A stretch of 64,000 nt of DNA from positions 62,001 through 126,000 of the IMG/VR virus record IMGVR_UViG_3300005856_000023, one strand, 5' to 3'. This stretch comes from a virus. The position numbers were made by a program, and so were the translations under genes. Below the pieces are notes generated by a model, which had not been told where the DNA came from, made no database searches, and was given only the letters and a program-made list of their open reading frames with translations. Numbering within the stretch: the stretch's first letter is position 1; each line of letters opens with the position of its first letter. Of this stretch, positions 494 through 62,241 are shown piece by piece.

Positions 494-1012
494 ATGAAAT
501 GTTTGTTATACGACTATAAATTAACCTTTACATTTAGAAACGATCATGTTACATTTTGTATTCATGTTTATGGTGATTATCAAGCCAATGAAATATTATC
601 TTTTGCTGTCATAGATTTATTTATTAAAATTATAAAGCAACAAAAAAGAAAACTTATTATTTTAAAAAAGAGAAAACCGATCTTACATTTGTTAAATTAC
701 ATTGATATGCTCAATTTCATTAGTAATGAATTTAACATTACCTTTTTCTCAAAAAATAAATACAAAGCAGAATTATTATATAACTTGTATTCATACCGAA
801 CAAAACCCTTTAAGGACTTTGGTCGTAAAAATGGTCTAAAAGTTATTGAAAACGAAAACTTTTGTGTCATTAGATTTGAATATGATTATGTTAATATAGT
901 AAAGCCAAAGAATGTAGATTTAGCCGCTATGGTAATGCATATACTTAAGAAGGAAGAGAGTGATGAGATAGATGTAAGTAGTATAATATTTTATTGTGTA
1001 CTTCTAATGTGA
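494..1012 (+). CDS. Hypothetical protein, tandem paralogue
   Basis: 172 residues. It is the full-length version of the family whose other copy ends at 432. The N-terminal 30 residues look beta-rich (MKCLLYDYKLTFTFRND), followed by a basic segment (KQQKRKLIILKKRKPI) and a helical C-terminus. No transmembrane segment or recognised motif. The ATG follows a start-linked box with no Shine-Dalgarno site. Function unknown; the gene itself is supported by the paralogue. Confidence 0.75.
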   Translation: MKCLLYDYKLTFTFRNDHVTFCIHVYGDYQANEILSFAVIDLFIKIIKQQKRKLIILKKRKPILHLLNYIDMLNFISNEFNITFFSKNKYKAELLYNLYSYRTKPFKDFGRKNGLKVIENENFCVIRFEYDYVNIVKPKNVDLAAMVMHILKKEESDEIDVSSIIFYCVLLM

Positions 1013-17396: not shown

Positions 17397-17509
17397 CCAC
17401 CTCCTTTAAAAGTTTTTCTTGTATACAAATTTAGATAGTTTTTTAACACATTCTTAAAGTGGATTATAAGCAAAAATTTCATGAACTACAACATATAATA
17501 AACTACATT
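17397..17509. repeat. Cassette A, copy 2
   Basis: Same promoter-leader block as at 4062, with box CTAAATTTGTATAC at 17421-17434 (minus strand), leader and AAAGGAGGTG for the 16890 gene. Its right end carries the first bases of the 4151 gene with ATGA lost after the initiator, which breaks that frame (ATG AAC TAC AAC ATA TAA). Confidence 0.8.
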
Positions 17510-17710
17510 TTACCAAAGATTTAAAGGTTCAACAACTAAAATGTAATAGTCATAGCGAAAGAAAAAGAAAAATCTATCCTTTCTGTTGCAAGGTATTACA
17601 TATTTGCAATCTACATAATCTATCAAGTAAAGTAAAGCGTTCTTCTCATCATTAGGTTTAGTCAATCTTCTCAAAAATACGTCTCCACCAAATCTCCCTG
17701 TCATCAACAT
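17510..17710 (-). pseudogene. 3' part of a frameshifted accessory gene (copy 1)
   Basis: Open frame of 66 codons (TKPNDEKNALLYLIDYVD...), identical in protein sequence to the copy at 21191. It has no ribosome site of its own. The ribosome-site start 75 bp upstream (17783) reads MKELQTRGEAQ... in another frame that ends inside this one, so the two are best read as one gene of about 100 codons split by a shift near the ATTTTTG run at about 17672. Confidence 0.5.
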
Positions 17711-17783
17711 GTTCTACCACGACCTTGCCTCCTTGCTTGTTTTCAATTTGCTGGGCTTCGCCCCTGGTTTGTAACTCTTTCAT
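17658..17783 (-). CDS. Short MKELQ ORF, 5' part of the split gene (copy 1)
   Basis: 41 residues, beginning MKELQTRGEAQQIENK and ending REIWWRRIFEKID. Strong ACAGGAGGTGAAATC site, and the ATG overlaps the stop of the 17780 gene (TCATGA), so it is translated by coupling. It shares the MKELQ opening with the genes at 21073 and 23729. Probably the truncated first part of a frameshifted gene. Confidence 0.55.
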   Translation of the reverse strand: MKELQTRGEAQQIENKQGGKVVVEHVDDREIWWRRIFEKID

Positions 17784-21073: not shown

Positions 21074-21190
21074 GTTACACCTCCTTTAAAAGTTTTTCTT
21101 GTATACAAATTTAGACAGTTTTTTTAACACATTCTTAAAGTGGATTATAAGTAAAAATTTCATGAACTACAACATATAATAAACTACATT
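21071..21190. repeat. Cassette A, copy 3
   Basis: Box CTAAATTTGTATAC at 21101-21114 (minus strand), leader and AAAGGAGGTGTAAC driving the 20420 gene. The right end holds the same broken start of the 4151 gene as copy 2. Confidence 0.8.
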
Positions 21191-21391
21191 TTACCAAAGA
21201 TTTAAAGGTTCAACAACTAAAATGTAATAGTCATAGCGAAAGAAAAAGAAAAATCTATCCTTTCTGTTGCAAGGTATTACATATTTGCAATCTACATAAT
21301 CTATCAAGTAAAGTAAAGCGTTCTTCTCATCATTAGGTTTAGTCAATCTTCTCAAAAATACGTCTCCACCAAATCTCCCTGTCATCAACAT
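21191..21391 (-). pseudogene. 3' part of a frameshifted accessory gene (copy 2)
   Basis: Same 66-codon open frame as at 17510, with no difference in protein sequence. The frame break is in the same place, so it predates the duplication or is tolerated or used. Confidence 0.5.
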
Positions 21392-21464
21392 GTTCTACCA
21401 CGACCTTGCCTCCTTGCTTGTTTTCAATTTGCTGGGCTTCGCCCCTGGTTTGTAACTCTTTCAT
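21339..21464 (-). CDS. Short MKELQ ORF (copy 2)
   Basis: 41 codons, same sequence and same overlap with the preceding stop as the 17658 copy; ribosome site ACAGGAGGTGAAATC. Confidence 0.5.
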   Translation of the reverse strand: MKELQTRGEAQQIENKQGGKVVVEHVDDREIWWRRIFEKID

Positions 21465-30479: not shown

Positions 30480-30551
30480 TAACTCTTTACAAAAACTTCT
30501 TTACTTAGTTAACTCCCTCTTAACAATTTAGTTTAGAAGGAGGTGGCTGGC
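30480..30551 (+). promoter_or_regulatory. Leader of the KH gene
   Basis: TTAACTAACT and TTAGTTAAC form a spaced inverted repeat, followed by TTTAGTTTAGAAGGAGGTGGCTGGC and the ATG at 30552. Strong ribosome site; possible operator. Confidence 0.4.
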
Positions 30552-31715
30552 ATGGATGCTAAGAACTTGCAAGTTAGAGATGTAATTGATAGCAAGACCG
30601 TATTTGAAACTAAAGATGGCAAAATTGTGGAAACCTCTGCTTTTCCTTTCTGGAGGCTGGCGTTCAATGTAAAACATGAACTTTCAGATAAGACTTGGCG
30701 GTATGCTGCGGGCTGGAGTGAAGAATACCCTCTAAAGTTTGCACAGGTTCATGTGGAAAGGGACTTGGAAAAGGATGAATTTGCAAATGGCAAAGAGTTT
30801 CAGGAGTTTGTGGAAAAACTGACGAACGGGACTTTTTACGATATGAGTTTCACTTGGGCTGGGTCTGAATGGCTAAAAGGCTACTTTAAGATGGACGAAC
30901 CTTTCAAAATGGAAGTGTGGTCTTATTGGATAAAGGGAGTGCTGATAGGCTTGAGGTTCATTCGCTGGGGCAACTCCACTTACGCATCCAACATCAAAAA
31001 ATTCACAATAGAAACTCCAAGCGGTGTTCTCTTTGAAAAGGAAAGACCGATGCTTAAGGCTTCTCCATATCCTCATAAAGACTGGTATATCATCCACGAG
31101 GTCTCTCAGAAAGACCTTGTAAGAAGTGCAAGGCTGAAAATGGCACATGAATACGGCAGTGCAGTGGGCTATCACACCGCAGGCTTGGCCTCAAGGCTTC
31201 TAAGGGACAAGGGCGTGCTTGGAAAGGTTCTACCTCTAAAGCCCATTGACTTTCAACCTTCTGAAAAGGGAGGCTATATTGTCAAAGGCTACGGCAAATA
31301 CATAATCACAGATGCAAACAAGTTTGGCTATTACCTCATCACAGAAGAACTTGAGAGGGTAAAGTTTGCTAAACTTGTAAAAGAAGTGGATGATGTGGAA
31401 GAGGAAATAAGAGCTTGGGAGAAGATAAAGGCAGAAAGAGAGGAAGAACTAAAGGAGAAACTTCTAAAAGGAGAAGCTTATGTGGTGAGTGTTTCTTATG
31501 TGATGAATGAGAAGAAAATCACAAAATTCTACTACTTAGAAAGGGAAAACGGAAAGCTGGTTCTCAGAGTTCCCAAATGGATGGCAGGACATGTGATAGG
31601 AAAAGGAGGGCAAAGGATAAAGAGATTGCAGGAGGTCTTGGGAGAAAAGGTGTACATAGAGACTTATGATGATGGTGTGATGCCCGAAAAAATTGAGTTG
31701 AGTTTTGGGTGGTAG
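30552..31715 (+). CDS. Accessory protein with C-terminal KH domain
   Basis: 387 residues from the ATG at 30552 (a GTG at 30543 lies inside the ribosome site). Residues about 335-385 form a KH RNA-binding unit: LRVPKWMAGHVIGKGGQRIKRLQEVLG with the GKGG loop. The large N-terminal part is Trp/Lys-rich with HEYGSAVGYHTAGLASRLLRDKG, and a coiled segment (EEEIRAWEKIKAEREEELKEKLL) joins the two. Family not recognised. GC-rich accessory codon use, single-gene unit between a terminator and a convergent fibre operon. Possible RNA-binding host-control protein. Confidence 0.7.
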   Translation: MDAKNLQVRDVIDSKTVFETKDGKIVETSAFPFWRLAFNVKHELSDKTWRYAAGWSEEYPLKFAQVHVERDLEKDEFANGKEFQEFVEKLTNGTFYDMSFTWAGSEWLKGYFKMDEPFKMEVWSYWIKGVLIGLRFIRWGNSTYASNIKKFTIETPSGVLFEKERPMLKASPYPHKDWYIIHEVSQKDLVRSARLKMAHEYGSAVGYHTAGLASRLLRDKGVLGKVLPLKPIDFQPSEKGGYIVKGYGKYIITDANKFGYYLITEELERVKFAKLVKEVDDVEEEIRAWEKIKAEREEELKEKLLKGEAYVVSVSYVMNEKKITKFYYLERENGKLVLRVPKWMAGHVIGKGGQRIKRLQEVLGEKVYIETYDDGVMPEKIELSFGW

Positions 31716-33392: not shown

Positions 33393-34430
33393 ATGAACAA
33401 TCTTAAACAAAAACTTGAACTGGAAAAGATTAAAAAGAAGGAAAGAGAAATTAGAAAGATATTTAAACATGCTAATTTGAAAGATTTTAATGTAGACGAT
33501 TTTAGTAAGAACGTAAACAACATTCCTTATCTTCAATATGCTCTCAACTTGGAAATGTATAACGATATGCTTTTTAAAATCAAATATGTAAATAAAGATC
33601 TATCAAATCTTGTATTTACAGTAGATAAGGATTATGAAGTTGAGATTTTAACAATAAACCTTAATGGACAATTAAGATGGTCAAAAATAGTAGAAGTAAG
33701 TGTACATCTAAATTTGGATGGATATAGCATACAACTAAAAGATGAATATGCTAACAATCTAAAAATGAAACAAACTAATTTTAAAGTATCTAGTGATCAT
33801 TCTTTACTTGTTTATGATGTTAGCAAACAGAAAATAATCAAAGCTACACCAAAGAAAATTTCTCGCAATCTAGACAACTATTGTTTTATTGGTTATCCAA
33901 AGAAACTATTCAACAATTATATAGAGATAGAGCGGTACGAAGATTTAGCTTTCATACCTTGTTCTTGGTTTGAATTTAAACCAGAACAAAAGTTAACTTT
34001 GTATGATATCTCAGTTGATGACTCTAATTATTGTTACTTTCATATTTCACCGGGCATATTTGTTGTAGATACTGCAATAGTGTATACACTACATACAGAA
34101 GAAGCAAAGAAAGAAGCCTTAGAAAAAATGTCACTCTCAAAAAATTTGATCTCATCAGAAAATATAAATAATTTCACATATGGTATAGATAAAAATGCTC
34201 TGTTTGGATTAATAGTTGGATCACAAACAAGTCAAGATTTGGGTTATAAATATAATCCAAAGGAATTTAAATTCAATGTTAATAGCATACAAGAGCTTAA
34301 AGAATTGCTAACAACAAAGTTAGCAGGTAAGTACACAATCTTTGATTACGTTTATGTTGATAATAAAAAACTAACTATAGGACAAGCATTCATAGCATTA
34401 ACAATTAAAGAACAGCTTGTTAAGAGATAA
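33393..34430 (+). CDS. Hint (intein-like) domain fused to an RNA polymerase beta' middle segment
   Basis: 345 residues. Residues about 75-225 look like a Hint/intein fold: EVEILTINLNGQLRWSKI (near block A), NFKVSSDHSLLVYD (block B, T/S..H), LTLYDISVDDSN (block F) and SPGIFVVDT (block G, usual VVHN then C/S/T). After that, TAIVYTLHTEEAKKEALEKM and LSKNLISS..FTYGIDKNALFGLIVGS align with the beta' segment right after the catalytic DGD (usual MAVHVPLS.EA..EA..LM). No Cys/Ser1 or upstream extein is present, so it may be a C-terminal split-intein half, a degenerate intein or a domesticated domain. Confidence 0.6.
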   Translation: MNNLKQKLELEKIKKKEREIRKIFKHANLKDFNVDDFSKNVNNIPYLQYALNLEMYNDMLFKIKYVNKDLSNLVFTVDKDYEVEILTINLNGQLRWSKIVEVSVHLNLDGYSIQLKDEYANNLKMKQTNFKVSSDHSLLVYDVSKQKIIKATPKKISRNLDNYCFIGYPKKLFNNYIEIERYEDLAFIPCSWFEFKPEQKLTLYDISVDDSNYCYFHISPGIFVVDTAIVYTLHTEEAKKEALEKMSLSKNLISSENINNFTYGIDKNALFGLIVGSQTSQDLGYKYNPKEFKFNVNSIQELKELLTTKLAGKYTIFDYVYVDNKKLTIGQAFIALTIKEQLVKR

Positions 34431-37452: not shown

Positions 37453-38379
37453 TTACATTCCACCTTTTTTGAGTGAACTAATTAAATCTTGAGCTGTTTT
37501 ATGTATTACTTTTGCGCGAGCACCTGTATGCATAGACTTTAGTAGACCTGTGTATGCAAATTCAGATATCGCATGAGCTGATAATACACCAAGTTGTTTT
37601 GAGTTTAGTTTCTCATATATAAGCCCAGCACAACGTTTACAAATTTTGTTATTAGGTAATGTGCAATATATAGGTGAGTACATTTTGACCTCTTTGCCCA
37701 CAAATTTATCTATATTAGTTTCATCCAACAATATATCCACATCCTTTTGCTTTATGAATCTGTATAGGAATCTATGTTTATTTTTGTCTGTTATAGTTAC
37801 ATTTAATAAATCTTTTGGTTCACATATTTTATTTACATCAACTTCAACGTTTAAAGCATAAATGGCTTGTCTTAGAAAGTATCCTGGTTTTTGAGTAAAC
37901 ATAACTCTATCCAATATACCTTTTCTAGCAGCATTAGCATAATCAAAGAATTCACGTTGATTGATACCTTTTGCTAGAGAGTTTACTACAGGCCTGGGTA
38001 TAACCTTATTTCTAACATCTACAAAGTATCCTCTGCTTATGGCTAGTTGTTTGATGTTGTTTCTTGCAGCGCCAATCTTCATAGCATACACACTTGGATT
38101 ATTAAACGTAGCATATTTATCAAAATACTGTTTGCTATATTCCTCTAATTTTTTATCATAGGTATCCGGATCAACTTTATCACTTAAATCCTTTACTTCC
38201 ATTATAACATAATCCTTATAACTAGTTGTCATACCTAGCATTGTTGCTAGCTCAAATCCGATTTTTTGTAATGCAGCAATTAATTTAGCAGTTGTTTCTG
38301 GTCCATATTCATTAAATACTTGTCTTAAAAATGTATTTAGATCTTTTTTTGATTTAAAAGTGATTTTGTTAATATCCAT
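37453..38379 (-). CDS. RNA polymerase beta' C-terminal-type piece (set X)
   Basis: 308 residues aligning to the beta' region from just before the bridge helix to the trigger loop. GAARNNIKQLAISRG corresponds to SGARG..QI.QL. NSLAKGINQREFFDYANAARKGILDR then PGYFLRQAI is the bridge helix. CTLPNNKICKRCAG gives zinc Cys. LSAHAISEFAYTGLLKSMHTGARAK stands where [23 protein letters not shown] is expected, so the trigger loop is strongly altered. It starts about where the Hint-beta' gene ends, suggesting both belong to one enzyme. 12 bp downstream of the ligase stop. Confidence 0.75.
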   Translation of the reverse strand: MDINKITFKSKKDLNTFLRQVFNEYGPETTAKLIAALQKIGFELATMLGMTTSYKDYVIMEVKDLSDKVDPDTYDKKLEEYSKQYFDKYATFNNPSVYAMKIGAARNNIKQLAISRGYFVDVRNKVIPRPVVNSLAKGINQREFFDYANAARKGILDRVMFTQKPGYFLRQAIYALNVEVDVNKICEPKDLLNVTITDKNKHRFLYRFIKQKDVDILLDETNIDKFVGKEVKMYSPIYCTLPNNKICKRCAGLIYEKLNSKQLGVLSAHAISEFAYTGLLKSMHTGARAKVIHKTAQDLISSLKKGGM

Positions 38380-39294: not shown

Positions 39295-42168
39295 ATGTTA
39301 GAGTTGGGTATAGTATTGGGATTTGATTTTGATCAACAAGAGGGTAAAACTTTTAAAATTAAAGATTATGATTATCCTACATTTGAACAAGGTTTATACA
39401 AAGTGTTATTACTTAGAGAACCGAAAAGAACTATTAAAGCATTTCCCATATCTACTTCTGTTTATGTGTATGGAAGAAATTTAGCTTATAGCTATCCTTA
39501 CATAGCTATAGGTTCTCTTGTCTTGGTTTATATGTGGCCAGAATCAGATCTAGGTATTATAATAGGTTCTCCACAAATTATAAAAGAAGGAGAATTGCTA
39601 AGAAATATGACAACTTTATACAAATCTATTTTGGGTAATAACATTGTTGTTACAGAACCAAGTTATTTTCACAATCAATACACTAGTGGTTTAGTTGTTG
39701 GACATCCTGATGCTTTGTGTAATATTGGAACATTGTTTGGAGCAAAAACGAATGAATTTATTGATATCAATGTTAGTTTTGATGATTTGATTAAAAACAA
39801 TATTCATTTACTTACAGGTTTATCCAAACATTTAAATGTAGATGAAAAAGCATTGTTTGCACAAACAAGACTAAATGCTGAAATAAATAATGAACAGCCT
39901 TTTCAATTCAAAGTTCCTAACATATCTTTTCCAATAGGTTCGTCATTCTTATTACACAGAAGCAGACCCTTGTTGTTAGATTTGTTAAATCAAGATGATA
40001 AAAATTACAATCAAATCTCTAGTGGAAGAGAATCATATATGGATCACATACTTGTACATAGCAAAGTGCATACATATAATCTGAACAATCTAATCATAAA
40101 TCAGTACAATAATACTGGCTTGTTTAATGCTAGAATTGTAGAATATAAGACTGAAGATAGTAGGATAGTTAATGTAGGTGGATCAAAAGTGGATGAATCA
40201 ATTGCTTACAGCAAAAAATTCTACTACCAACCACTTGTTAGTATCAATAATGACACTATTGTGATTAGAGAAAAAGTAGAAACCTTACCCTTTGAAAAAC
40301 CTTATCTACATAGAAGAGTTAGCAAAACATTTAATTTTGAAAAAAGATTATTTGTGAAGCAGGAAAATTTTGCAAATTATTATCAATTTACAACTAGACT
40401 TGATGCAACGGAAAGGTCAATAGTTCATTCTATAATAACACAACAAACAGCAGATACCCAGTCTATAGTAGGTCTACAAGTTGAAACTAAAAATATTAGT
40501 AACAATAATATCATACGTTCAACAATTGAGATACAAAACAATAGAATATTGCTTGTAGTTGAACAAGGTGCAGATCAATCAATAATTGAAATGACTCCTA
40601 CAAAAATTACAATACATGCAAAGCAAATAGAGATATTAGGTGAAAACATATCGATACTAAGTAGTAATCCTATCAAAGGTTATATACTTAGATCTGTGTA
40701 TGCAGATCAACGCGCACCAGGTCCATCTGTTTCTTATCATCCATATAATGTTAAGGTTTCATCTTACATACAAAATGGTAATAATACTCAAAACATACTT
40801 TCACCAACATACAGTAATTCAGGTACAAATTCTAAACTAAGAATTATAACGGAAACAAAATTAAAAACTATGCTACTTAACACTACAGATCAAACTATTA
40901 GAGAATTAAGTAATTTGTTTGAGTCAATAAAAAGAGAAGTTAAAAGATTAAAACCTAATAATGTAGACAACTTACTTTCGAAAATATGTAATTTATTTTC
41001 CATTTTGTCTATGATACCAGCTGCTATAACACAACTATTGATCAATTTAGCTTCGGCTGCTTTACCTTTGTTAATAAGCCAACTATCAAGTATAGTTAAT
41101 ACAATCTTAAGAGTTATTGATAATGTAATAAGTTCAATTACAAATATTATTCAACGAAGTCCTATATTTCATTTACTAAAACAAATATCTAATGTTTTAG
41201 CTTCCTTTCTAGCTGCAATTTTACAATCTATAAATGCTTTACTTAATGATATTAGTTCATTACTGAGTAACATTGGCTTTAGCATTAATAATATACTAGA
41301 TGTTACTCTACCATTATTAGCACTGGCAGAATGTATTGTAAGTTACATAAGGACAATTCGTAACGAAAATCCTGCTCTTTCTATTGATCCGATAGATGAT
41401 ATAATTAACGATAGCAATCCAAATAAATTAACAGACTACAAAGTCAAAATAAAAGGAAAACGTCTAGAATTAGATTCACAAACATATACCATAAATGGTT
41501 CTCATGCAAACATAGATAGAGAACAAATGATGAGTTTAATAAACAATGAAACTGTTAATAGTTTGAATTTATATGATGGCTTAATAACTTTGCTTGAAGG
41601 TGGTATGTTGCAAATAATCAATGGTAGTTATCTAAATCTGAATGAATATAATATAACTTCTGGTATCATCAAATTTGGTTCTGGTAGAATTGGCAATATA
41701 GCAATTAATCATGGTCATGCTAATGTCAAGTCGGGTAATATAGTTATTGATAACAATAATAGGGAAATTATAATCAATCTTTTGTTACAAGGACAGTTTG
41801 TTACCGGCGGTAGCACTGGTACTACCAGCAGTAGCAATGTTATTGAATTCACAATGGAAATACAAACAACTACAAATACAAGTGATGTTCTAACAGATTT
41901 TGTAAATCCAGATCTCTTAACTTTTAATGAAAAAGCGCTACAAGAACTATCTAGAATGATTGAGAATATTGCTCCATCTGATAAATTCGACAAAAACATA
42001 AATATACAACCAGATGAATTAAATAATGTCTTAAAAGATATACAAAAAACTATTAATGAGTCATATAATCAAACCATAAATAAATTCAACAAAAACATAA
42101 ATATACTAACAAATGAATTAAATAATGTCTTAAAAGATATACAAAAAACTATTTCTCAAATATGTTAA
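39295..42168 (+). CDS. Baseplate central spike/hub protein with OB fold
   Basis: 957 residues from the ATG at 39295. Near the N-terminus, YPYIAIGSLVLVYMWPESDLGIIIGSPQ matches the gp5/VgrG-type OB fold (..G..V.V.F..GD...P.I.G). IEMTPTKITIHAKQIEILGENISIL (about 435-460) is short-strand repeat typical of spike prisms. A hydrophobic helical block (about 560-680, IPAAITQLLINLASAALPLLI...) is unusual for a spike. The C-terminus carries a 33-residue tandem repeat (FDKNINIQPDELNNVLKDI). Its stop overlaps the end of rpoB. Confidence 0.65.
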   Translation: MLELGIVLGFDFDQQEGKTFKIKDYDYPTFEQGLYKVLLLREPKRTIKAFPISTSVYVYGRNLAYSYPYIAIGSLVLVYMWPESDLGIIIGSPQIIKEGELLRNMTTLYKSILGNNIVVTEPSYFHNQYTSGLVVGHPDALCNIGTLFGAKTNEFIDINVSFDDLIKNNIHLLTGLSKHLNVDEKALFAQTRLNAEINNEQPFQFKVPNISFPIGSSFLLHRSRPLLLDLLNQDDKNYNQISSGRESYMDHILVHSKVHTYNLNNLIINQYNNTGLFNARIVEYKTEDSRIVNVGGSKVDESIAYSKKFYYQPLVSINNDTIVIREKVETLPFEKPYLHRRVSKTFNFEKRLFVKQENFANYYQFTTRLDATERSIVHSIITQQTADTQSIVGLQVETKNISNNNIIRSTIEIQNNRILLVVEQGADQSIIEMTPTKITIHAKQIEILGENISILSSNPIKGYILRSVYADQRAPGPSVSYHPYNVKVSSYIQNGNNTQNILSPTYSNSGTNSKLRIITETKLKTMLLNTTDQTIRELSNLFESIKREVKRLKPNNVDNLLSKICNLFSILSMIPAAITQLLINLASAALPLLISQLSSIVNTILRVIDNVISSITNIIQRSPIFHLLKQISNVLASFLAAILQSINALLNDISSLLSNIGFSINNILDVTLPLLALAECIVSYIRTIRNENPALSIDPIDDIINDSNPNKLTDYKVKIKGKRLELDSQTYTINGSHANIDREQMMSLINNETVNSLNLYDGLITLLEGGMLQIINGSYLNLNEYNITSGIIKFGSGRIGNIAINHGHANVKSGNIVIDNNNREIIINLLLQGQFVTGGSTGTTSSSNVIEFTMEIQTTTNTSDVLTDFVNPDLLTFNEKALQELSRMIENIAPSDKFDKNINIQPDELNNVLKDIQKTINESYNQTINKFNKNINILTNELNNVLKDIQKTISQIC
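41981..42165 (+). repeat. In-frame 99-bp tandem repeat in the spike gene
   Basis: Two nearly identical units, starting at 41981 and 42080, encode (KF)(D/N)KNINI....ELNNVLKDIQKTI. The period is 33 codons. Confidence 0.75.
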
Positions 42169-44909
42169 CTTTTTTGCGATTTTATATGAAAGCTATAAAG
42201 TAGTTGTTGTAACAATTGATTTGATTTTATTTTTAACTCTGCTGGCAATGTAGCTTTACCTTGCTGTATTATGTTTGGTATAACACTATCAAGAAAATCA
42301 GAAGATTCAGCATTCAACATGAACAATTCTTTCATCACTGCTGGAGCATCATGAGCTAATATTGCCCAACTATCAAACTCTCCAATTCTATGTCCACCGG
42401 ATATCTTTTTACCTTTCATTGCTTGACCAGTTAGAGCTCTCTTTGGAGCATCTGCTACAGCATGTAATACTTCATCTGTTGTATGCTCCAACCTAAACCA
42501 ATACATGTAGCCAATGCTAACAGGATAGGTAGTGTAGGTTTTAAACTCAGGTAGATATAATTTTTGACTTGTGCTTATACTAAAATGTTTCTCTAGCCTT
42601 TGTATAGCAGCTTGTGTATCATCTCCATGTGATGATGGACTTGCAAATGGTGGTATAATAACAGGAATGGCCTGTATCTGTTTTGCTCTGTTGTATATCC
42701 TATTGAAATCATAGTCGCTTAATGCATGCAATGATTTCATCAGTTTATCCAAAATATTGGAGTTAAAGTATAATACTTCATAGAATTTTATAAAAGTCTC
42801 TTTAAAGGTTTTGAGATCCTTAACAAACTTTTGATAAACATGTTTTGCTATGTAAGATACAGCAAGTTCATATAACTGTCCAATGTTAGCTCTGTTGACT
42901 ACTCCTAATGGATCGCATATAACATGTACTGTTTCACCATATTCTGTTTTGGGCATTAATTCATCTGGTATGATTGCAGCAATAACTCCTTTGTTTCCAT
43001 GTCTATTACATAACTTATCTCCTAATCTAGCATGATTATATTTTGATAGCACAAAACTCAGTATAGCAATTGGTTTCTTATCGTTGTATCTAAAACCTTT
43101 TAGTTTTGATATATCTTCCGGTATTAAATATCTTGATTCAAAGTCACTATAGTATTTTGTATAATTTTGAACATAGGCTTTGTATTTGGTTATAAACTTA
43201 TCATATATTGGTTTAAGTTCCTTTACCCTATCATCATTTATATCAACATTTAGGTAAATAGCAAAATCCAATATATCATTACCTTTGAATCTGTAGTTAA
43301 TAACTCTACCTGCTACTTCTTTGAGTATTGATATTTCAGAATCTGATACAAATTCGCTATCAGATTGTTCTATTAGATGTTCGTCTTCTTCTTCCTCTAC
43401 ATCTTGCTTTTCATTTATTAACATTTCAACTCTGAACATTATCTCACCATCTTTAAATCTCTCACCTTTAAGCAATTTTGGATTTACTGCTACAATCTTT
43501 TGATCTTTCCAAATTGGTATATTAACTATAAAAGTCTTTTTTGTTACACTTAGTTGCTTAGCAAATGATTCAGATACCACAATACCATCTTCATATGTAT
43601 AACCTTTGTAGTGCATAAATGCCGTAAGCACATTCTTTCCTAAAGATAATGTTTCTTGTTTAACATAATCTGATTCAACTAAAATTTGATCTTTTTTGAA
43701 GACATCGTTAGTTTTTATATGCATATTAACATAATATTTACCTTTACCTGTGTTTAGTATTCTTGCTCCAGTATCATAAAATACTTCCCTTCCGTCTTTA
43801 TATTGAACAACTATATATCCGTCTTCTTTCTCTATAATTTTACCATCATCTTCTGCTCGTATGGTAAATAGTCCAGATGTAAGCCTTGGTATTATTGATT
43901 CTATACCTGTTGCAACAATAGGTATTTCGCTATTCTCCAATGGAACAATTGATCTAAGTTGGTTTGTTGCTAGCAAGACTCTATTACCATCATTATGCTC
44001 GATGAAAGGTATCATGCTCTCAAGTGGAGACAATATACTATAATGTCCTTCCAAAGCAGGTAACTCTATTCTTTTTATTTTACCTGATAAATCTGATATG
44101 TATGCTCCGAGTGTTAATCTGTTTGTCTTAGATGTGTTAGCATTCTCTGGAGTATCGTAAGCAGCTATCTTACCATAAACCGATTCATCTAAGTAACCTA
44201 TGTCTGCTACTGATGCTTCCTGTTTAATTCCATCTGGTCCTGTTAGTTTCAAAGTGAAAACTAACGATAGTTCCTCTAGTGGAGATGATGTTTCAGCTAT
44301 TTGTAGCAGCTCGGGTAGACGGTATCCGAATGCTGTACTATCTGACAATTTTTGAACTATAGTTGATGGATTAAAAAATCTTGATAGTTTAGCGTCTGGT
44401 TTATCTTGTATTTTTTGGTATAGTTTTAAGGACTTAACAAACTCTTTGTAGAAGACCTGTATTAGTAATTCTGCCCAACGTAATCTTGTATTATCTGATA
44501 GTCGTGGTTTAGATGCTTGACCAGACGCAGCTAAATACAAAGCATAAGCTACAACATCTTCTGCTTTTGTATCAATGTTATATAATCTTCTTATTAAATC
44601 CATCGTTATACTGTCTGTTTCAAAATCTAAAGCAACTAACAATACACCTTTGTATTTATTAGCATCATGTTCTGATTTTAATAGTTTTATAGTTTCAAAA
44701 GCTGCATCAACTAGTTTGAATTTATCCTTTTCTATACTATGTGAATCAAGTTGTTCAACAAATTTTTGAAATTCATCTGATTCAAGTAAACCTTGTATTA
44801 TATCTGGATCGTATACGAACTCACTTTGTCTCTTGAAGACAAGTTTTTTACCATCAGCTAGAGGAAAACTTATAATGTTTTTTGATGTTATATTTCTCTT
44901 GCTAGACAT
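42165..44909 (-). CDS. RNA polymerase beta subunit, C-terminal part
   Basis: 914 residues. SPLEELSLVFTLKLTGPDG, then VYGKIAAYDTPENANTSK (usual HYGRICPIETPEGPNIG), ESMIPFIEHNDGNRVLLATNQLRSIVPL (usual LIPF.EHDDANRALM.SNM.RQAVPL), YEDGIVVSE, GDKLCNRHGNKGVIAAIIPDELMP, DPLGVVNRANIGQLYE and GGHRIGEFDSWAILAHDA cover the catalytic half of beta. The N-terminal lobe is missing and is supplied by the 62504 gene. An acidic insert (QDVEEEEDEHLIEQSDSE) is lineage-specific. Divergent from the protease gene with 22 bp between ATGs. Confidence 0.92.
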   Translation of the reverse strand: MSSKRNITSKNIISFPLADGKKLVFKRQSEFVYDPDIIQGLLESDEFQKFVEQLDSHSIEKDKFKLVDAAFETIKLLKSEHDANKYKGVLLVALDFETDSITMDLIRRLYNIDTKAEDVVAYALYLAASGQASKPRLSDNTRLRWAELLIQVFYKEFVKSLKLYQKIQDKPDAKLSRFFNPSTIVQKLSDSTAFGYRLPELLQIAETSSPLEELSLVFTLKLTGPDGIKQEASVADIGYLDESVYGKIAAYDTPENANTSKTNRLTLGAYISDLSGKIKRIELPALEGHYSILSPLESMIPFIEHNDGNRVLLATNQLRSIVPLENSEIPIVATGIESIIPRLTSGLFTIRAEDDGKIIEKEDGYIVVQYKDGREVFYDTGARILNTGKGKYYVNMHIKTNDVFKKDQILVESDYVKQETLSLGKNVLTAFMHYKGYTYEDGIVVSESFAKQLSVTKKTFIVNIPIWKDQKIVAVNPKLLKGERFKDGEIMFRVEMLINEKQDVEEEEDEHLIEQSDSEFVSDSEISILKEVAGRVINYRFKGNDILDFAIYLNVDINDDRVKELKPIYDKFITKYKAYVQNYTKYYSDFESRYLIPEDISKLKGFRYNDKKPIAILSFVLSKYNHARLGDKLCNRHGNKGVIAAIIPDELMPKTEYGETVHVICDPLGVVNRANIGQLYELAVSYIAKHVYQKFVKDLKTFKETFIKFYEVLYFNSNILDKLMKSLHALSDYDFNRIYNRAKQIQAIPVIIPPFASPSSHGDDTQAAIQRLEKHFSISTSQKLYLPEFKTYTTYPVSIGYMYWFRLEHTTDEVLHAVADAPKRALTGQAMKGKKISGGHRIGEFDSWAILAHDAPAVMKELFMLNAESSDFLDSVIPNIIQQGKATLPAELKIKSNQLLQQLLYSFHIKSQKS

Positions 44910-45593: not shown

Positions 45594-47231
45594 TTACTCT
45601 TCTGCTAATTGTTTAATACGAGATTCTACATTAATATTTTTTGTCTCATATGTAAATGATTGAGATGCTCTTTCAAACAATAATCCTAGACCTAATCTAT
45701 GTGGCATAATTTTAATTGATTCTTTTGTCATTGGAAAATCAAACTTTCTATCAAAGAAGTAAATGTTATTGTCTTTTGTTAATAGTTGAGCCATAACCAA
45801 TAGCTCAATCATAGATAGTGGAATTCTTTCTTTGTATGAGAGCATACTAAACAATACCTCTATTAACTTATAGAGATGCTTTTCATCTTCAATTACAAAC
45901 TTGCTGTTTAATATCTTCTTTAATAGTTTGATAGAGTTTACAATTGAATGATAGTTTATTGTAAACAGAGGTCCTTGATAGTTATCCACGTTCTTATCTA
46001 TGAAGAGTAGATAACCTGGTTGTAAATCAATCTCTATACTTTTATCGTTACATTTTATTATCATTTTTGTTTCATGTAATAATATATGTTTTACAGTTAA
46101 GATTTTTGTGTCAAACCTTATGTCAGCTGGCTTATCAAGTATAATGATATTTCTGTCCATTCTCAATAAATCAGGATAGGATGTTAGTAAGTTAGTAAAT
46201 GTGTTTGCTATGTTAACAGCAGAACCTGTATGAAACACTCTTAATGTTAGTTGTACTCCTCTCTCTCCTAAAGTTTGAGCAGTGATTATTCCTATCTCAT
46301 CGTAATCTCTATAATACCAATCTCCAAAACATCTTCTACAAATACCGTTATCTGTTTTGCAATGTAAAACTGATCTAAAGGGAATACTATGTCCGATTAA
46401 ATGTTTATCCTCTTTTGTCAACATTTTTTCTTTGTTAGTTCTAATGTCATAATAATACCTACCAACAAGATTGTAAAAGTTTGATTCAGTTACTTTGTAG
46501 ACGATATATTGATTGCTATGACAATCTTCCTCTTTGAATCTGATATGCGATAAGTTGTAAATGAATTGTCTTGTTAGATAGCCGGGTTCAAATGTTGAAA
46601 CTGCTTTATCATAGGTTGCTTTTCTAGCTCCTTCTCCAGATCTAACCAAAGATTGTAGAGATAATCCATCTAGATAGTTATCTTCAATAAATATTAGTTT
46701 TCCAGGTGCTGTCTCTATATAACCCCTGGCTAGTAACATTTGTCTTAATTGTATATCTGATGCTCTAACTCCGCTATCAACAATATTGACAAGCAAATTA
46801 TTTCTTTCCTTTAAGGATGTTTTGAATTCATTGTAATACTTTTCGAGTAACAAATTTTTATTTATGATGTTCGTAGTATTTTTAATCTCCTTTATGTATT
46901 GCTTACGTATCTCATTTAAATCTAATAAATCATCTAGTGTTATGGAAAAAGATGCAAAAGTAGATAAACAGTGTCCTAATTTATACATGTAATCTATGCA
47001 TTCCAAAGTTTTATCTGGATTGTTACTATTTAACTCTATTAAATTGGATATAAATTCTGACATAGTTTTTTTGTTAAATTTTGCAGGGATATTATTTTCG
47101 TCTAGTTCTAATCCAAAGTCTTTTATAACGTTTATTAGAAATTGTTTTAAATCAAAATCGTATTGTTCCAATTTTTGCATACATTCATTACAAAATTTTT
47201 TCATTTGCTTTAGGTAATCAACCGGTTGCAT
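45594..47231 (-). CDS. RNA polymerase beta' subunit, C-terminal part (set Y)
   Basis: 545 residues. TMSEFISNLIELNSNNPDKT matches the ..KK.I..L......G..... segment. SGVRASDIQLRQMLLARGYIETAPGKLIFIEDNYLDGL with GEGARKATYDKAVSTFEPGYLTRQFI is the bridge helix. CKTDNGICRRCFG supplies zinc Cys. IGIITAQTLGERGVQLTLRVFHTGSA is a well-conserved trigger loop. It picks up where the 5954 gene ends, so the two probably make one split beta'. Headed by a start-linked box. Confidence 0.9.
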   Translation of the reverse strand: MQPVDYLKQMKKFCNECMQKLEQYDFDLKQFLINVIKDFGLELDENNIPAKFNKKTMSEFISNLIELNSNNPDKTLECIDYMYKLGHCLSTFASFSITLDDLLDLNEIRKQYIKEIKNTTNIINKNLLLEKYYNEFKTSLKERNNLLVNIVDSGVRASDIQLRQMLLARGYIETAPGKLIFIEDNYLDGLSLQSLVRSGEGARKATYDKAVSTFEPGYLTRQFIYNLSHIRFKEEDCHSNQYIVYKVTESNFYNLVGRYYYDIRTNKEKMLTKEDKHLIGHSIPFRSVLHCKTDNGICRRCFGDWYYRDYDEIGIITAQTLGERGVQLTLRVFHTGSAVNIANTFTNLLTSYPDLLRMDRNIIILDKPADIRFDTKILTVKHILLHETKMIIKCNDKSIEIDLQPGYLLFIDKNVDNYQGPLFTINYHSIVNSIKLLKKILNSKFVIEDEKHLYKLIEVLFSMLSYKERIPLSMIELLVMAQLLTKDNNIYFFDRKFDFPMTKESIKIMPHRLGLGLLFERASQSFTYETKNINVESRIKQLAEE

Positions 47232-60420: not shown

Positions 60421-62241
60421 ATGAAGTTTGATAACTGCGCTTCATGTATGTTAAGAGATCGTCCTATTGTTATGGAGGATTACATAGATAATGGATCAGA
60501 TCAAACTATTATGTTAGTTGGTGAAGCACCAGGCTACACAGAAGCAAAAACCGGTAAGCCATTTACAGGTAAATCAGGCTCCATAATTCGTAACATTATA
60601 AAACAAATCAAAAACTACAATATTGTAATAACAAATAGTGTTTTATGTCATCCAGATAAGAATGAAACTCCAAATGATACTGTGCTAACAAAATGTAGAC
60701 CAAACATCATTAATCAAATACAAAAATATTCACCTGTTAAAATTATTACACTAGGTAATAGAGGCTTGCAACAAATATGTAAAATTTACCAACTTAAGCA
60801 TATTAAAGCATCACAAAAAGGATTTATAGACACTGTTTTGGATAGGAATACTAAACAAAAGATAGAAATTTATGCAACATATCATCCAGCTTACTATTTG
60901 AGAAGTAGAGAAGAGAATATCATAAATCATATTTTGGATACATTTAAGCAAGCAACAAATAATCCAAATCTAGTCTACATAGATACAGCAAGCAAAGTAG
61001 AAGCAGCAAAACAATTAGAGTTCTTACAATCAGAATATGATAGTGCTAAGAATTTAGATTTGGATATTGATTTAGATGGATATGATATAATATCCTGCTT
61101 TGAACATGAAAATTATATGTTGTTATGTTTATACAAACCTGAAGCAGGCAAAAAAATTATCGGATTACCAATTCAAACTTTTGTACATAATTTTGATGCA
61201 GACAAAAAATTCAATTTCGCTACATTTGTAACAGGAGATAAAAAAGAACTCAGAATTGTTAGCAGAAATTACAATAAAATACTTAGTGACTACATAAAAA
61301 ATATAAATGGCAAAAGTTCTTCATTTGGAGTTATAGAGGGCAGTTTAGTTCAGAATTTTGCGTTATTCCTATCAATATCTAGAAATAGATCGTTTCACAA
61401 ACCCAGTTATATATACTTGGATATAGAAGTTTTAAACAATGAAGGAGAATTTCCAGATCCAGTTGTAGCTGATAGACCCATCATATGTTACAGTTATATG
61501 GATAACAATAAGAACAAAATATATAGTTGTTACTTGCAAACAAAACATATAGATTTACAAACAGTAAAAAAATATTTACCAGAACAAGTTAGTCAAGAAA
61601 TTGAATTGATTGCTTTCGAAAATGAAAAGGATTTAGTTGTTCATATAACCAATAAGATAAAAGATGAGTTTGCTTTGTATGTTGGTTGGAATGTTGGCTT
61701 TGACGTATCATACATTATAAACAGATACATAAAGCTAACAAACGATAGTTCCATTATTCCCTGTAAAGTGAATGATGAAAAGAATGTGGGTATAGATTGT
61801 GATTTAGTCTATGGTGCAACAATAGATTTGTTAAAGATGTATCGCAATATAAAACCAGATCTAACATCTTACTCTTTGGATAATGTCTCAAAATTAGAAT
61901 TAAAATCCAGCAAAGTAAAAATAAACAAATCCTTAAAACAAATCTGGGATGAAGATCCAAGCTTAGTTATTGCATACAACATATATGACACTATTCTGGT
62001 TAGCATGATAGATGAAAAATACAAGTTTGTAGACCAATATCACTATTTGAGATCTTTGTATGAATTACCTTTTAACGAGAAATTTGTTAACAGTAAAGTT
62101 TTAGCTACAACTATTAAGTTGATTGCAATTGCTCTGAGACATAATCTAATTCCAACTATGTTAGCTAGCAAAACAATTGATTCATATACAGGAGCATATG
62201 TAAGAGAGTTTATAAAAGGTGTATTTAGAGTAGAATCTTAA
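60421..62241 (+). CDS. Uracil-DNA glycosylase fused to PolB-type 3'-5' exonuclease, no polymerase domain
   Basis: 606 residues. Residues 1-190: family 4 UDG with Cys6/Cys9, GEAPG (34-38), LCHP....KC Cys pair (Fe-S cluster) and YHPAYYL (motif 2). Residues about 325-560: family B DNA polymerase exonuclease with YLDIEV (Exo I), NVGFD (Exo II) and YNIYD (Exo III). It ends at GAYVREFIKGVFRVES, exactly where PolB continues with the D..SLYPS palm motif. The polymerase part must be elsewhere. Probably removes uracil and proofreads at the fork. Confidence 0.82.
   Translation: MKFDNCASCMLRDRPIVMEDYIDNGSDQTIMLVGEAPGYTEAKTGKPFTGKSGSIIRNIIKQIKNYNIVITNSVLCHPDKNETPNDTVLTKCRPNIINQIQKYSPVKIITLGNRGLQQICKIYQLKHIKASQKGFIDTVLDRNTKQKIEIYATYHPAYYLRSREENIINHILDTFKQATNNPNLVYIDTASKVEAAKQLEFLQSEYDSAKNLDLDIDLDGYDIISCFEHENYMLLCLYKPEAGKKIIGLPIQTFVHNFDADKKFNFATFVTGDKKELRIVSRNYNKILSDYIKNINGKSSSFGVIEGSLVQNFALFLSISRNRSFHKPSYIYLDIEVLNNEGEFPDPVVADRPIICYSYMDNNKNKIYSCYLQTKHIDLQTVKKYLPEQVSQEIELIAFENEKDLVVHITNKIKDEFALYVGWNVGFDVSYIINRYIKLTNDSSIIPCKVNDEKNVGIDCDLVYGATIDLLKMYRNIKPDLTSYSLDNVSKLELKSSKVKINKSLKQIWDEDPSLVIAYNIYDTILVSMIDEKYKFVDQYHYLRSLYELPFNEKFVNSKVLATTIKLIAIALRHNLIPTMLASKTIDSYTGAYVREFIKGVFRVES

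Follow-up and report, generated by a model that had tools for sequence, protein, structure and literature searches.

A virion-type phage RNA polymerase beta' gene fractured at its catalytic loop, with the putative halves of a divergent, atypically split intein at the break

Two groups of known systems come closest to the locus reported here. The first is that of the atypically split inteins: in PolB16 OarG, a short N-terminal intein half (Int-N) of 15 amino acids (aa) is paired with a long C-terminal half (Int-C), and in TerL of Agrobacterium phage Atu_ph07 (L029) we found that a tail of 42 to 44 residues starting with a serine nucleophile (Ser1) is matched by a separate Int-C open reading frame (ORF), which is extended at its N terminus and has threonine as the first residue of the C-terminal extein (Thr+1). 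The second is that of mobile elements in phage RNA polymerase genes. Group I and group II introns have been reported in the virion RNA polymerase beta' N genes of AR9/PBS1-like phages (PMC12350094), and the intron of PhiPA3 gp210 interrupts a virion RNA polymerase gene at a catalytic aspartate (PMC11620839). Here we describe a virion-type beta' N gene broken at its catalytic motif in the 129,010-base virus record IMGVR_UViG_3300005856_000023. The window, i.e., the whole stretch analysed, comprises 64,000 nucleotides (nt) of this record (C1:62001-126000); positions prefixed C1 are those of the record and all others those of the window. The C-half gene, P0001, lies in the window and the N-half gene, P0002, outside it, and in our judgment their products are probably rejoined by an atypically split, divergent Ser1/Thr+1 intein.

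The anatomy resembles that of Atu_ph07 TerL and, with a tail of 44 aa in place of one of 15 aa and a long Int-C, that of PolB16 OarG. However, the TerL halves are adjacent, whereas those described here are about 77 kb apart on opposite strands and the host protein is RNA polymerase beta'. Unlike both of these inteins, the putative intein ends in Val-Asp rather than His-Asn, and its sequence similarity to them is near background. In having Asp for Asn it can be likened, by description and not by sequence, to inteins whose last residue is Asp or Gln (Amitai et al. 2004, as cited in PMC4031507), from which it differs in that the Asp is found within a trans-split Ser1 intein. The insertions of the AR9/PBS1-like phages affect the same gene and the same catalytic motif but are RNA elements acting in cis, whereas the insertion here is an open reading frame distributed over two loci; PhiPA3 gp210, for its part, is a beta gene with a cis intron that has an HNH endonuclease, and not a beta' gene. 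No split intein at the beta' DxDGD site of a multisubunit RNA polymerase was found in the literature searched.

P0001 is a 345-aa ORF on the plus strand (33393..34430), opposite to both neighbouring genes, and is present as given in a preliminary description of the window made from the sequence. Its last 119 residues are the beta' continuation after the DxDGD loop, and the preceding 226 residues are not beta'. The latter comprise an N-terminal extension (residues 1 to 60; 33393..33572), predicted by a low-confidence model to be largely helical and possibly an assembly segment, and a Hint-like Int-C (residues 61 to 226; 33573..34070) assigned by block analysis, its hidden Markov model (HMM) score not being significant. 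The peptides on which the preliminary description had based its intein proposal are all in place: SSDHS at residue 133, LYDISV at residue 203, and GIFVVD at residues 221 to 226. The first contains the block B (N3) candidate Ser133-x-x-His136 (33789..33800), the second is block F (C2) with Asp205 (33999..34016), and the third is block G (C1), the presumptive intein C terminus, with Val225-Asp226 replacing His-Asn (34053..34070). As that description also stated, GIFVVD directly precedes the beta' residues that follow the catalytic loop, the last intein residue is Asp226, and the +1 residue is a threonine, Thr227, from which the C-extein extends (34071..34427).

The preliminary description had noted the lack of a Cys1 or Ser1 residue and of an N-extein, and had proposed to look elsewhere in the genome for a beta' N-part ending in NADxDG and fused to an N-intein. 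The absence holds for the window, but both were found outside it. When the record was screened for PF00623, the active-site domain of beta', two N-parts emerged, P0002 and P0003. P0002 (C1:16788-18083, minus strand; 431 aa) encodes beta' up to GGDFDGD, followed by a serine and 43 further residues before the stop: the end reads ...PLGGDFDGD and then SVDANITIRVKSKKTNKITYFRDLPIGLVIAIPKQFVEGSINDE, the tail beginning with SVDANITIRVKSKKTNKITYFRDLPIGL directly past the motif. One extein and one putative intein half are thus found in each of the two genes, which meet at a single site. The orthologues of P0002 are LPJP1 rpoC1, S6_0550, and AR9 g145, whose annotation is that of the N terminus of virion RNA polymerase beta'; P0002 also matches them in length, and a PolB catalytic gene lies upstream of it as in AR9. 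The P0002 product is, by orthology to AR9 g145, presumably a jumbo-phage virion RNA polymerase subunit.

P0003 (5954..7339, minus strand) was also considered as the partner of P0001 and rejected, as it has its own intact NADADGDTVV motif and continuation (NADADGDTVVLFYLD..., uninterrupted). The preliminary description had stated that a complete second beta' N-part without an intein partner would refute its proposal; P0003 is a complete second N-part, but it is a separate paralogue and not the missing half. It is apparently the beta' N subunit of the phage's other RNA polymerase, probably the non-virion enzyme, and does not belong to the split gene. The record also contains two beta' C-parts, one including the trigger-loop region (37453..38379) and the other at 45594..47231, and two beta subunit C-parts (42165..44909 and C1:21644-23236), as expected for two polymerases; those in the window are all on the minus strand.

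The two halves are complementary, meeting at one register with no residues missing. Joining D387 of P0002 to T227 of P0001 gives DFDGD-TAIVYTLHTEEAKKEALEKM, a product of 506 aa, compared to 503 to 504 aa in several uninterrupted relatives and 522 to 532 aa or longer in others. The pattern of the uninterrupted relatives is DxDGD-[T/M/Q]-x-S-[IL]-[KR]-...-EAN-x-EA with small variations. An HMM of the virion RNA polymerase family, built from eight uninterrupted relatives, scored P0002 at 84.4 bits when truncated at DFDGD, at 88.4 bits when the tail was left on, and at 104.5 bits when joined to P0001 from T227; against archaeal Rpo1N (PDB), joining raised the score from 64.3 to 76.0 bits, with a gap-free alignment across the junction. 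We also made trial joints of P0002 up to DFDGD with the next 60 residues from sampled positions of the genome's ORFs. Residue 227 of P0001 came top of 12,306 such joints with an HMM of uninterrupted relatives (29.5 bits, over a base of 10.7). When both cuts were varied, the register stayed fixed and the crossing point could slide from 386/226 to 393/233 within about 3 bits; among these near-equal cuts, only 387/227 supplies both nucleophiles, Ser1 and Thr+1. Since DGD-T is native in several relatives, Thr+1 is a residue of the host protein.

The N-half tail and residues 61 to 226 were compared with intein block matrices made from 13 inteins and scanned over the genome's ORFs. LYDISV of P0001 was the top C2 match of 39,992 positions, N1 at the single place predicted for it (after DFDGD) was in the top 0.9% of positions, C1 in the top 1.9%, and N3 in the top 0.25%. 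Of 100,000 segment pairs drawn at random from this genome, none attained the summed N1+N3+C2+C1 score of 20.8 (maximum, 14.5), nor did any of 20,000 self-shuffles. The N-side test was prospective; the C-side figures are so only in part, as the blocks were among the reasons for which the preliminary description had chosen the ORF. N3 is the softest block: the window picked for the summed score was KIIKATPKKISRN and not that of SSDH, and S133-x-x-H136, which conforms to the T/S-x-x-H of block B, is weak taken alone. Overall, the insert appears to be a very divergent Hint domain, coincidence of the motifs being the less likely alternative. A rearrangement that broke the gene, leaving residues 1 to 226 as an unrelated phage domain or junk and a polymerase either non-functional or built from fragments, would fit the insignificant HMM scores, the substitution counts in P0001 (see below), which neutrality could produce, and the existence of a second beta' N-part. 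Yet it sits poorly with the block statistics, with the strong purifying selection on the N-half, and with the persistence of both halves in independent assemblies, and we hold it to be quite unlikely.

Ser388 of P0002, directly past DFDGD, is the residue 1 nucleophile and is kept in all assemblies; Thr227 is the +1 nucleophile; and Asp205 in LYDISV takes the F:4 position of block F, which is Asp, Cys, or Trp. On sequence, the combination of Ser1 and Thr+1 puts the putative intein in the minority Ser1/Thr+1 group. Ser1 (cysteine-less) inteins have a motif NX histidine, usually after Lys or Arg (PMC10189870); by eye, His105 in EVSVH (33705..33707) lies in the right stretch and is the candidate for it, with Val in the place of the usual Lys or Arg. 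The two-gene anatomy, the register of the junction, and the conservation of both halves in independent assemblies are established by these data, whereas a Hint fold, association of the halves, splicing and its chemistry, and any regulatory role are inferred. The N-precursor P0002 would consist of beta' up to GGDFDGD plus Int-N from Ser1, and the C-precursor P0001 of the extension, Int-C, and beta' from Thr+1. On association of the two proteins, the short Int-N would complete the Hint fold to give one class 1 Ser1/Thr+1 intein. Ser1 would then become ester-linked to the final Asp of DFDGD, Thr+1 would attack this ester, Asp226 would be resolved in Asn's stead, and the extein peptide bond would form. 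The predicted product is a continuous DFDGD-TAIVYTLHTEEAKKEA strand, with a junction peptide spanning GGDFDGD-TAIVYTLHTEEAK, in which the catalytic loop would be completed only after trans-splicing. Such splicing might serve as a switch in maturation, the virion polymerase remaining inactive up to its assembly. For this full proposition, that the metal-binding active site is made only by trans-splicing, through a very divergent Val-Asp split intein, of the products of two genes that are about 77 kb from each other and on opposite strands, and at the site used by self-splicing introns in relatives, we put the chances slightly above even.

In AR9, the same motif is interrupted by an intron (GGDYD^GD), and among 36 other related viral loci several are interrupted at GAD^FDGD, at DFDG^D, or near DxDGD, the remainder of the gene following in cis on the same strand after 0.2 to 1.4 kb or more. 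Rfam identified group I introns in L063 and L068, gave group II matches in AR9, and found nothing in the other relatives tested; the interruptions are mostly introns. Interrupted virion-type beta' N genes, whether at the catalytic motif or elsewhere, were seen in L034-L039, L050-L054, L060-L064, and L068-L069. Some of the inserts are only about 0.2 to 0.3 kb long (L034, L036, and L050) and, where tested, were not seen by Rfam.

These introns, and those of groups I and II published for this gene (PMC12350094), lend some weight to splicing in trans at the RNA level, by a split group I or II intron of which the extra residues would be read-through. However, Rfam covariance models at lax thresholds detected no intron family at P0001 or P0002 (they also missed the inserts of several relatives), and intron read-through was rejected as the leading explanation. 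P0001 is moreover open and in frame, with its own ATG, for 226 codons ahead of the putative exon, and the P0002 tail scores as an intein N terminus. We therefore regard RNA-level trans-splicing as very improbable.

Both halves recur outside the record. Two IMG/VR contigs of about 96% nt identity carry P0002 with the same stop, the Ser1 codon varying between AGT and AGC with the residue constant. A metagenome-assembled genome (MAG) labelled Candidatus Aenigmatarchaeota Bin S16 holds both halves on different contigs (L072 and L073): a full-length homologue of P0001 (L072, JAJHRL010000046.1; 96% aa identity) and P0002 from residue 68 on (98%). Ser1, Thr+1, S133, H136, H105, and D205 are unchanged in the MAG copies, and so is GIFVVD in L072. 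It was probably their composition that brought the phage contigs into this bin, so that its label does not name the host. Patterns of the P0001 sequence gave this one near-identical copy in GTDB genomes and none in IMG/VR, and tblastn of P0001 in phage records gave no match. A scan of IMG/VR for other Cys1 or Ser1 (TCN codons; AGY codons were not scanned broadly) inteins after GxDxDGD yielded no obvious intein: of the 88 matches that were translated, those of Cys type, with intein-like sequence, or with a short tail were inspected and look like native continuations. The ratio of nonsynonymous to synonymous substitution rates (dN/dS) of P0002 is about 0.05 to 0.14, indicating strong purifying selection.

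Several observations weigh against an active split intein. The P0001 comparison gave 14 nonsynonymous and 6 synonymous changes (4 and 1, respectively, in the C-extein), a dN/dS of about 0.56, which is a weaker constraint than on P0002; these substitutions may be compatible with neutral evolution and are the main sign of a decaying C-half. The intein C terminus is Val225-Asp226 where His-Asn is usual, and the His normally found in block F is missing. With an HMM built from 14 inteins, the joined intein ranked first among 344 sequences but scored 6.4 bits, compared to 45 to 82 bits for true inteins left out one at a time from the same kind of model (all comparison sequences except those of Npu DnaE and gp41-1 came from fetched records). 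Pfam, NCBIfam, and PHROGs searches of P0001, and Pfam and NCBIfam searches of the joined intein, gave no intein match; phmmer of either against PDB gave only chance matches to L29; and HHalign against a 10-intein alignment placed P0001 first by score without significance. Profile searches thus provided no significant Hint family placement for residues 61 to 226, but assigned no other fold to them either. A single-sequence AlphaFold2 model of P0001 alone was unusable (predicted local distance difference test score, 34). Finally, the first residues of the P0002 tail, SV, resemble the native continuation, so that the exact cut is not set by homology alone.

The preliminary description had offered two readings, the C-half of a split intein or a decayed intein. 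A two-piece beta' with its partner on the same record is what was found, in support of its proposal, and the intein may be either active or decayed. In a decayed split intein, splicing would have been lost and the unspliced pieces would assemble non-covalently, with the Hint remnants as docking domains. The Val-Asp end, the very low profile score, and the weak constraint on P0001 are all compatible with this, and jumbo-phage polymerases are already made of several beta and beta' fragments (PMC7598289). Against it, the metal-binding loop would then have to accommodate a 44-aa tail and a 226-aa head, and all of the six splice-relevant residues listed above are present and unchanged between assemblies. 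In addition, splicing is described in a review as possible for inteins that have Asp or Gln as their last residue or lack the penultimate His (PMC4031507), making the Val-Asp end unusual but not disqualifying. Decay is on balance unlikely.

If the split-intein interpretation is correct, a split intein would here restore a multisubunit RNA polymerase that is broken at the DxDGD loop of its catalytic site. A protein element would then occupy the site held in relatives by group I and II introns, which would make mobile-element fragmentation of jumbo-phage polymerase genes directly testable. The element would also add to the natural split inteins a distant member that ends in Asp, useful for studies of splicing chemistry.

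Other features were noted in the record. A 606-aa ORF (60421-62241, plus strand) combines a uracil-DNA glycosylase domain with the exonuclease domain of a family B polymerase, the polymerase part being a separate gene (C1:18117-19673). Four tandem paralogous ORFs of 172 to 174 aa, all starting with MKCLL, occupy C1:60740-63012 and reach into the window (494-1012). A 300-nt direct repeat, 100% identical (17439-17738 and 21120-21419), lies within a GC-richer island at about 17 to 24 kb (GC content of 0.39 to 0.43 versus about 0.30) that contains paralogous small ORFs. Local GC content is also above that of the surroundings at 30543-31715 (plus strand), which encodes a 390-aa KH-domain protein.
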